From the NCBI RefSeq assembly GCF_003351045.1, contig NZ_QQZY01000001.1, positions 1 through 64,000 of the forward strand: DNA of 64,000 nt, written 5' to 3'. The translations under genes and the position numbers were made by a program. Of the stretch, positions 18,648-45,299 are shown piece after piece (position 1 is the stretch's first letter; each line of letters starts with the position of its first letter). Source of the stretch: Gaiella occulta (GTDB taxonomy: Bacteria > Actinomycetota > Thermoleophilia > Gaiellales > Gaiellaceae). The notes under the pieces are model-generated. The model searched no databases, had not been told where the DNA came from, and saw only the letters and a program-made list of their open reading frames with translations.

Positions 18648-18677
18648 GCCCCGCCTTTCGCCGTCCTGCCCGCTCGA

Positions 18678-18685
18678 TATACACT
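18678..18685 (+). promoter_or_regulatory. Probable -10 region of the 18.7 kb RNA unit
   Basis: TATACACT (TATACA or TACACT as the hexamer) would start RNA near 18692. No clear -35 is seen. It lies 30 bases after the Rieske stop. Confidence 0.45.
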
Positions 18686-18691
18686 CGGGCT

Positions 18692-18930
18692 ACCGCGGAA
18701 AGGAGGTGGTCCGGACGTGACAGATTCGTGCAGTACCGGCAGTGGAGGTACCAGCGGGTAGAGGCGTGTCCCCGAGACCCACGGGGAATCGCCATAGCCA
18801 CGCGTAGGGGACGCGCGATCCGCGCCGCCGGCCGGGAATCCTCCGGTGCAGGCAGGAAGCGCCTCTACCACTTCGACGCTGGCCACCGGGAGCGAGGGCC
18901 GCCGTGAGGCGGCCCTCACCCTCTTTCCGG
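18692..18930 (+). ncRNA. Unassigned structured RNA / small-ORF transcription unit
   Basis: This self-contained unit of about 235 bases has its own -10 before it and a 10-bp terminator at its end. AAAGGAGGTGGTCC (18699-18712) matches the reverse complement of the bacterial 16S 3' tail almost throughout, allowing one G-U. A long-range helix pairs GGTAGAGGCG (18757-18766) exactly with CGCCTCTACC (18860-18869). Local hairpins lie between them (TCCCC/GGGGA at 18769-18787, CGCGT/ACGCG at 18801-18815), and GTACC/GGTAC (18733-18751) lies before them. Two small ORFs are possible: 14 codons from GTG 18717, nine bases after the Shine-Dalgarno, and 59 codons from GTG 18728 ending in the terminator loop. 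I do not recognise the RNA family. A structured regulatory RNA or leader is my reading. Confidence 0.55.
18894..18917 (+). terminator. Strong intrinsic terminator of the 18.7 kb RNA unit
   Basis: GAGGGCCGCC (18894-18903) and GGCGGCCCTC (18908-18917) form a perfect 10-bp stem with a GTGA tetraloop. It is followed by ACCCTCTTTCC, a weak U-tract. It separates the unit from the convergent membrane-protein gene. Confidence 0.75.
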
Positions 18931-45206: not shown

Positions 45207-45299
45207 CGCTCGACATCCGTCCGGGATTGGCACCGTCGCCCATGGGGGCAGGTTGCCGAGGCGTCACAGGGCCGGTCCCTCAGCCTCTCTCGATGCGGA
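45207..45299 (-). promoter_or_regulatory. SAM-I (S-box) riboswitch
   Basis: On the minus strand the order of conserved blocks is that of the S-box: GAGAGAGGCTGAGGGACCGG (about 45274-45293), GGCCCTGTGACGCCTCGGCAACC (45251-45273), then GGTGCCAATCCCG (45223-45235). The closing P1 strands are GCATC near 45293-45297 and GATGTC near 45212-45217. The ribosome site of the downstream gene begins only about 10 bases after P1. No separate terminator is evident, so control may be at translation. Binding SAM would turn the gene down. Confidence 0.9.

Follow-up and report, generated by a model that had tools for sequence, protein, structure and literature searches.

A candidate autonomous RNA gene with a ribosome-binding mini-ORF in Gaiella occulta and other actinobacteria

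Introduction

Leader-peptide attenuators, such as those of trp, his and other operons, combine a strong Shine–Dalgarno (SD) sequence, a short open reading frame (ORF) rich in one amino acid, helices overlapping the end of this ORF and an intrinsic terminator, and the gene they regulate is located downstream on the same strand. Dual-function small RNAs (sRNAs) such as SgrS and RNAIII are free-standing small RNAs carrying a short translated frame, and transfer-messenger RNA (tmRNA) is likewise a structured RNA with an internal short frame engaged by ribosomes. In the Caulobacter sRNA CC2171 (RF01867), the consensus GAAAGGAGGUGAUCC is closely followed by GUG. Finally, in Bacillus subtilis sinR, a slowing of ribosomes at serine codons serves as a signal (PMC3862929). 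Here, we compare these systems with an RNA unit located at 18692–18917 (+) in a 64-kilobase (kb) stretch of the Gaiella occulta genome (contig NZ_QQZY01000001.1, positions 1 to 64,000), hereafter called the window. We estimate at roughly one half the probability that this unit represents an undescribed class of autonomous RNA gene, namely a translated and structured regulatory RNA acting in trans.

The RNA resembles leader-peptide attenuators in its anatomy, but it is free-standing and lacks a regulated gene downstream on the same strand; also unlike them, it displays mostly non-ATG starts and a complete complement of the 16S tail. With dual-function sRNAs it seems to share both a free-standing transcript, as judged from its −10 box, its terminator and its variable neighbours, and a translated short ORF, as judged from a selection signature. 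Unlike in these sRNAs, the end of the ORF and its stop codon form strands of the core helices, and the C-terminal half of the peptide is unconserved between lineages. Unlike tmRNA, it initiates at an SD; neither ARAGORN nor Rfam called a tmRNA in the window, and a role as tmRNA replacement was rejected because a normal tmRNA is found elsewhere in the genome (155.5 bits). The sinR serine sensor relies on codons within a protein gene, of which only TCN act, whereas the RNA uses both serine codon families in a structured mini-ORF (PMC3862929). CC2171 is a possible analogue, although the RNA reaches only 19.1 bits (E 0.05) against a cut-off of 75 and the match consists mainly of the SD and a short hairpin. 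More generally, no Rfam 15 family matched the window locus or 13 homologous loci at the gathering cut-off, in line with what had been supposed from the sequence at the outset, and no description was found in the open-access literature, although one may exist elsewhere. As no tested family fits among Rfam and the open-access papers searched, we rate the RNA as categorically new.

Transcription unit and ribosome-binding site

A −10 box (TANNNT; TACACT at 18680–18685 in the window, on the + strand like all features of the RNA) stands 19–20 bases 5′ of the SD, here named SD1, in most of the 234 distinct upstream regions compared. This position points to a transcription start at the conserved A of an ACC leader (18692, six bases past the box). 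The 3′ end was placed, consistently with conservation, at a 10-base-pair (bp) terminator hairpin (18894–18917, arms 18894–18903 and 18908–18917) followed by a weak T tract, and trailing bases likely extend to about 18926. A hairpin with a T-rich tail was detected 3′ of the RNA in 171 of 221 copies versus 72 of 285 reversed controls. Instead of a clear −35, a weak C-rich motif (GTCC/CGTC; 18656–18668 in the window) recurs about 14 bases 5′ of the −10 box and 32–36 bases 5′ of SD1.

SD1 (GGAAAGGAGGTGGTCC, 18697–18712) is near-invariant in all copies and can form 16 pairs, some of them G-U, with the 16S 3′ tail. Within the 64-kb window, no other site on either strand complements the 16S tail as strongly as its stretch AAAGGAGGTGGTCC (18699–18712), whose predicted duplex has −27.8 to −29.1 kcal/mol versus −22.1 for the next unrelated site. 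The 16S 3′ end used here, GGATCACCTCCTTTCT, comes from a congeneric genome and was also seen in further members of the class, the draft genome of the window itself showing no 16S 3′ end. Behind SD1 lies a mini-ORF with a GTG start, 14 codons (VTDSCSTGSGGTSG) and a TAG stop (18717–18761). Thus, the features for which the initial annotation had singled out the locus were all recovered: a −10 box of its own, position-fixed among relatives; an extreme SD; a perfect 10-bp long-range helix, exact at 18757–18766 and 18860–18869; a 10-bp terminator, also exact; and a 14-codon ORF whose stop lies in the long-range helix. In copies from Acidimicrobiia (L189, L193, L197, L230 and others), CCTTTCCAG recurs some 170–190 bases past SD1, near the 3′ end, and is complementary to GAAAGG of SD1.

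In the family of the window's genome (Gaiellaceae), ATG, GTG or TTG is found 11–16 bases past the start of GGAGG in 81 of 84 copies, the other three apparently starting with CTG or ATA (by eye). Among 172 unique segments, the start codons, assigned by position and a few of them perhaps wrongly, were TTG (51), GTG (40), CTG (34), ATG (21), ATC (12), ATA (7) and ATT (7), i.e. non-ATG in 151 cases. SD1 suggests a parking of 30S subunits, in which the 16-nucleotide (nt) complement would capture free 30S, the poor starts would slow conversion to 70S and the mini-ORF would serve as a slow exit, the whole buffering initiation capacity. The near-invariance and rank of SD1 and the scarcity of ATG are consistent with such titration. 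However, it would require a high abundance of the RNA, and it explains neither the in-frame selection for serine and aspartate codons nor the elaborate fold around the stop described below; we hold it to be possible, if doubtful.

Secondary structure and covariation

Around the latter half of the ORF, three helices (P0, P1 and P2) are built from the 5′ end, an internal GGAGGT strand (SD2, 18744–18749, near-invariant) and the 3′ end of the RNA. P0 pairs the leader CCGC (18693–18696) with GTGG (18742–18745), and SD2 is common to P0 and P1. The 5′ strand of P1 (GGT and CCAGCG, 18747–18756) pairs with 18877–18882 and 18885–18887, within a 3′ strand CGCTGG..ACC (18877–18887). P2, the long-range helix, joins GGTAGAGGCG (18757–18766), which holds the stop codon, to CGCCTCTACC (18860–18869). 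Inside P2 stand P3 (GTCCCC, 18768–18773, with GGGGAC, 18807–18812), whose loop (18774–18806, with TAGCCA) is highly conserved and has many invariant columns, the hairpin P4 (CGCG/CGCG, 18814–18824; 98.1% of cells paired) and the hairpin P5 (18827–18853), which is variable in length and absent from some copies (82% of cells paired).

These helices were examined for compensatory changes in alignments of the sufficiently complete members of the 84 family copies, which had been located by motif. In an unbiased mutual-information scan, the top pair belonged to P1 (59–179; C-G, U-A and G-C, all cells paired). Over P1–P5 in 40 diverse copies, 96% of the cells were paired and 16 of 31 pairs had changed on both sides; 73 cells had changed on both sides, versus 19 in shuffles and 3–19 in slid controls, which supports the helices. 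Compensatory changes affected five of the seven pairs of the P1 core, five pairs of P2 (99.3% of cells paired) and two pairs of P5, and two pairs of P3 (96.6% of cells paired) had changed on both sides. A second group of 36 copies of Solirubrobacterales/Acidimicrobiia type, with the same layout and a different interior, displayed P0 (leader CCAG with CUGG just 5′ of SD2), P1, P2, a 3′ hairpin and a loop contact GGGAC–GUCCC, with 66 both-side changes versus 23 in shuffles; the loop contact is weakly supported, because it is nearly invariant. The whole region also folds better than shuffled sequences (z = −2.5), and the comparative evidence for the predicted fold is stronger than that from folding energy. 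A general sequestration of SD1 by the 3′ strand of P1, as drawn in minimum-energy folds of the window and Svornostia sequences, was rejected, since CCACC is not kept in most copies (judged by eye from the alignments rather than counted by script).

The conserved P3 loop could be the antisense region of a dual-function base-pairing sRNA, the ORF then tuning stability or giving a minor peptide. An RNA that is free-standing, ended by a terminator and about 150–235 nt long would suit this role. However, the interior loop varies between lineage groups, whereas the layout of SD1, ORF, SD2 and stop stays, so that we consider regulation by base pairing rather unlikely.

Reading frame and codon selection

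In the family, TAG or TAA occupies the same place in 84 of 84 copies. Upstream of SD2, the ORF frame is interrupted in a single one of these copies, and there 5′ of the start codon, versus 57 and 21 copies for the other two frames. Across homologues, exactly one frame is open in 215 of 229, the mini-ORF comprises 10–18 codons, and the stop is located 14–18 bases past GGAGGT in all but one. In Tsukamurella and Gordonia (L178, L185, L265, L274), a compact version encodes the peptide MVNFRTEEVAAA or MISFRTEEVAAA, and GGAGGTGG faces a CCACCT strand.

Between start and SD2, serine and aspartate codons are enriched 2–3 times in frame: 180 AGY codons versus 86 expected, 115 TCN versus 57 and 102 GAY versus 33, with no such excess in the other two frames. 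Serine reaches 36% versus 17% expected, through both codon families and in frame only, and the signal persists when the set is thinned to 93 segments (z of 11.5 for serine and 8.2 for aspartate). Both serine codon families, although unrelated, are used at identical positions, which points to the amino acid as the target of selection. Altogether, the sequence comparisons support the 14-codon frame as a real, selected and probably translated mini-ORF.

Selection on the amino acid might also mean that the locus encodes a tiny Ser/Asp-rich peptide with a function of its own, whose synthesis the RNA structure merely controls. However, the C-terminal halves are unrelated across lineages (STGSGGTSG, SGGGSS, CGTLEVPGR, RTEEVAAA), and 16 of 172 distinct peptides contain no serine. 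Moreover, different lineages read GGAGGT in three different frames, which makes a conserved peptide unlikely as the main product; we find this explanation improbable. The longer frame of 59 codons, present in the window, was rejected as a gene, 63 of 84 relatives having a stop before codon 40.

Distribution and genomic context

By blastn, the unit was retrieved in 96 of the 103 genomes of the family, including all 35 of high quality (a few further matches were short, and several genomes had copies split at contig ends), and it is single-copy in every good genome. A covariance model built from 40 diverse copies found a match in 114 of 129 genomes of the order and in 172 of 299 genomes of the class (Thermoleophilia). 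Public genomes were also scanned for the pattern SD1, gap, GGAGGT, for which a simple base-count estimate predicts about 3–4 chance matches; among the matches listed were Thermoleophilia, Acidimicrobiia, Tsukamurella and Gordonia, as well as one or a few contigs each labelled Planctomycetota, Gemmatimonadota, Latescibacterota, Eisenbacteria, Vicinamibacteraceae, Thermoanaerobaculia and Truepera (weaker). Two matches (L194, L233) were without the other features of the RNA. The copies from Planctomycetota and from Gemmatimonadota/Latescibacterota combine a short ORF with a stop located in a hairpin and a CCTGG-type strand on the 3′ side; whether they descend from the same ancestor as the actinobacterial RNA is uncertain, and labels of metagenome-assembled genomes can be wrong. 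Within the phylum, the exact pattern occurs in 25 of 296 genomes versus none in reversed controls, a lower bound since it demands exact SD1 and GGAGGTG and thereby misses the window's own copy (GGAGGTA). One match came from viral contigs (L320, IMGVR_UViG_3300037475_000032, about 300–400, − strand), where one can read a frame that starts at ATC, crosses GGAGGT and ends at a TAG, with a GGTGG/CCACC hairpin; by a rough estimate, a single viral match about equals the chance expectation.

The genes flanking the RNA vary by lineage, which argues that it is not a leader; a flanking gene conserved across copies was sought and rejected, conservation being local only. Of 201 neighbourhoods, 114 have their nearest downstream gene on the opposite strand and 74 have it on the same strand (genes were called with a simple GC-position script, some loci are duplicates and single calls may be wrong), and in the window this gene is convergent. 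A cis-acting attenuator or leader of the downstream gene is therefore highly improbable, despite a leader-peptide-like anatomy of strong SD, long-range helices, terminator and a short ORF with mostly locally rare serine codons (AGT, TCT and TCA account for 115 of 144 serine codons in the thinned set of 93 segments versus 3 of 87 in five window genes). In many family copies, the gene upstream encodes what we take to be a methyltransferase-like protein, and in Solirubrobacterales the gene directly upstream is presumably gyrase-A-like, both names coming from reading the sequence. In the latter order (L142–L161, L183, L205, L241 and others), the RNA often faces an HNH-type gene, also named from reading the sequence, and the order gyrase-A-like gene, RNA, HNH-type gene is stable there and not in other lineages. 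Elsewhere in the window are located an S-adenosylmethionine (SAM) riboswitch (RF00162, 70.4 bits; 45210–45299, −) and a tRNA-Lys (CTT) gene (237–310, −).

Proposed mode of action

SD1 serves a mini-ORF in which serine and aspartate codons come first and the stop lies in a long-range helix. Since the footprint of a ribosome extends some 15 bases past the A site, P0, P1 and P2 could not stand while one occupies the stop, and one on codons 2–6 would reach P0 only, which makes a switch read by the ribosome the most economical interpretation. The position of the ribosome on the mini-ORF would then select the state of the RNA: free of ribosomes, it would keep all helices standing, with SD1 exposed in the loop of P0; a ribosome stalled over the early serine codons would open P0 but spare P1 and P2; once it reached the stop, all three would melt, and the fold would reset on release. 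Such an RNA would report initiation capacity or the supply of seryl-tRNA, or hold 30S subunits. Serine sensing is plausible, and the poor start codons suggest initiation sensing, AUU-type starts being discriminated by initiation factor 3 (IF3).

Several points weigh against this interpretation. No stop was found in frame between start and SD2 versus 31.5 expected, but the frame had been picked for its openness and this zero is partly by construction, which the serine and aspartate excess is not. The serine-free peptides weaken the case for serine sensing, which cannot be universal. In the window's family, P0 is kept mostly as invariant or G-U/G-C pairs, and with so few changes its support rests on the second group. 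Finally, single-sequence minimum-energy folds favour different pairings, and in some of these SD1 is partly hidden.

Among the three functions envisaged by the initial annotation, a ribosome-binding regulatory RNA seems the best fit. A leader is contradicted by the RNA's own promoter and terminator, together with the opposite orientation of the next downstream gene in more than half of the neighbourhoods. The small-protein option survives only in part: its 59-codon frame, real in the window, is not conserved in relatives, whereas translation of the 14-codon frame is supported by the codon signature, with a conserved peptide product unlikely. Taken further, the ribosome-read switch leads to a tentative picture, to which we give rather little weight, of a widespread class of trans-acting sensor RNAs: free-standing attenuators that would signal translation or serine status to the cell, their shape being set by ribosomes that a full 16S-tail complement recruits and that read serine codons, or else the quality of a non-ATG start, in several actinobacterial classes and possibly in other phyla.

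Significance

To our knowledge, the combination of a complete 16S-tail complement, mostly non-ATG starts, a stop and ORF half embedded in a conserved fold, and serine codon selection is not known. The presence of the RNA as a single copy in every good genome of the family, together with its wider spread, indicates that it is probably important to the cell. It occurs in lineages whose riboregulation is little known, and offers a concrete object for asking whether bacterial trans-acting RNAs sense ribosome behaviour.
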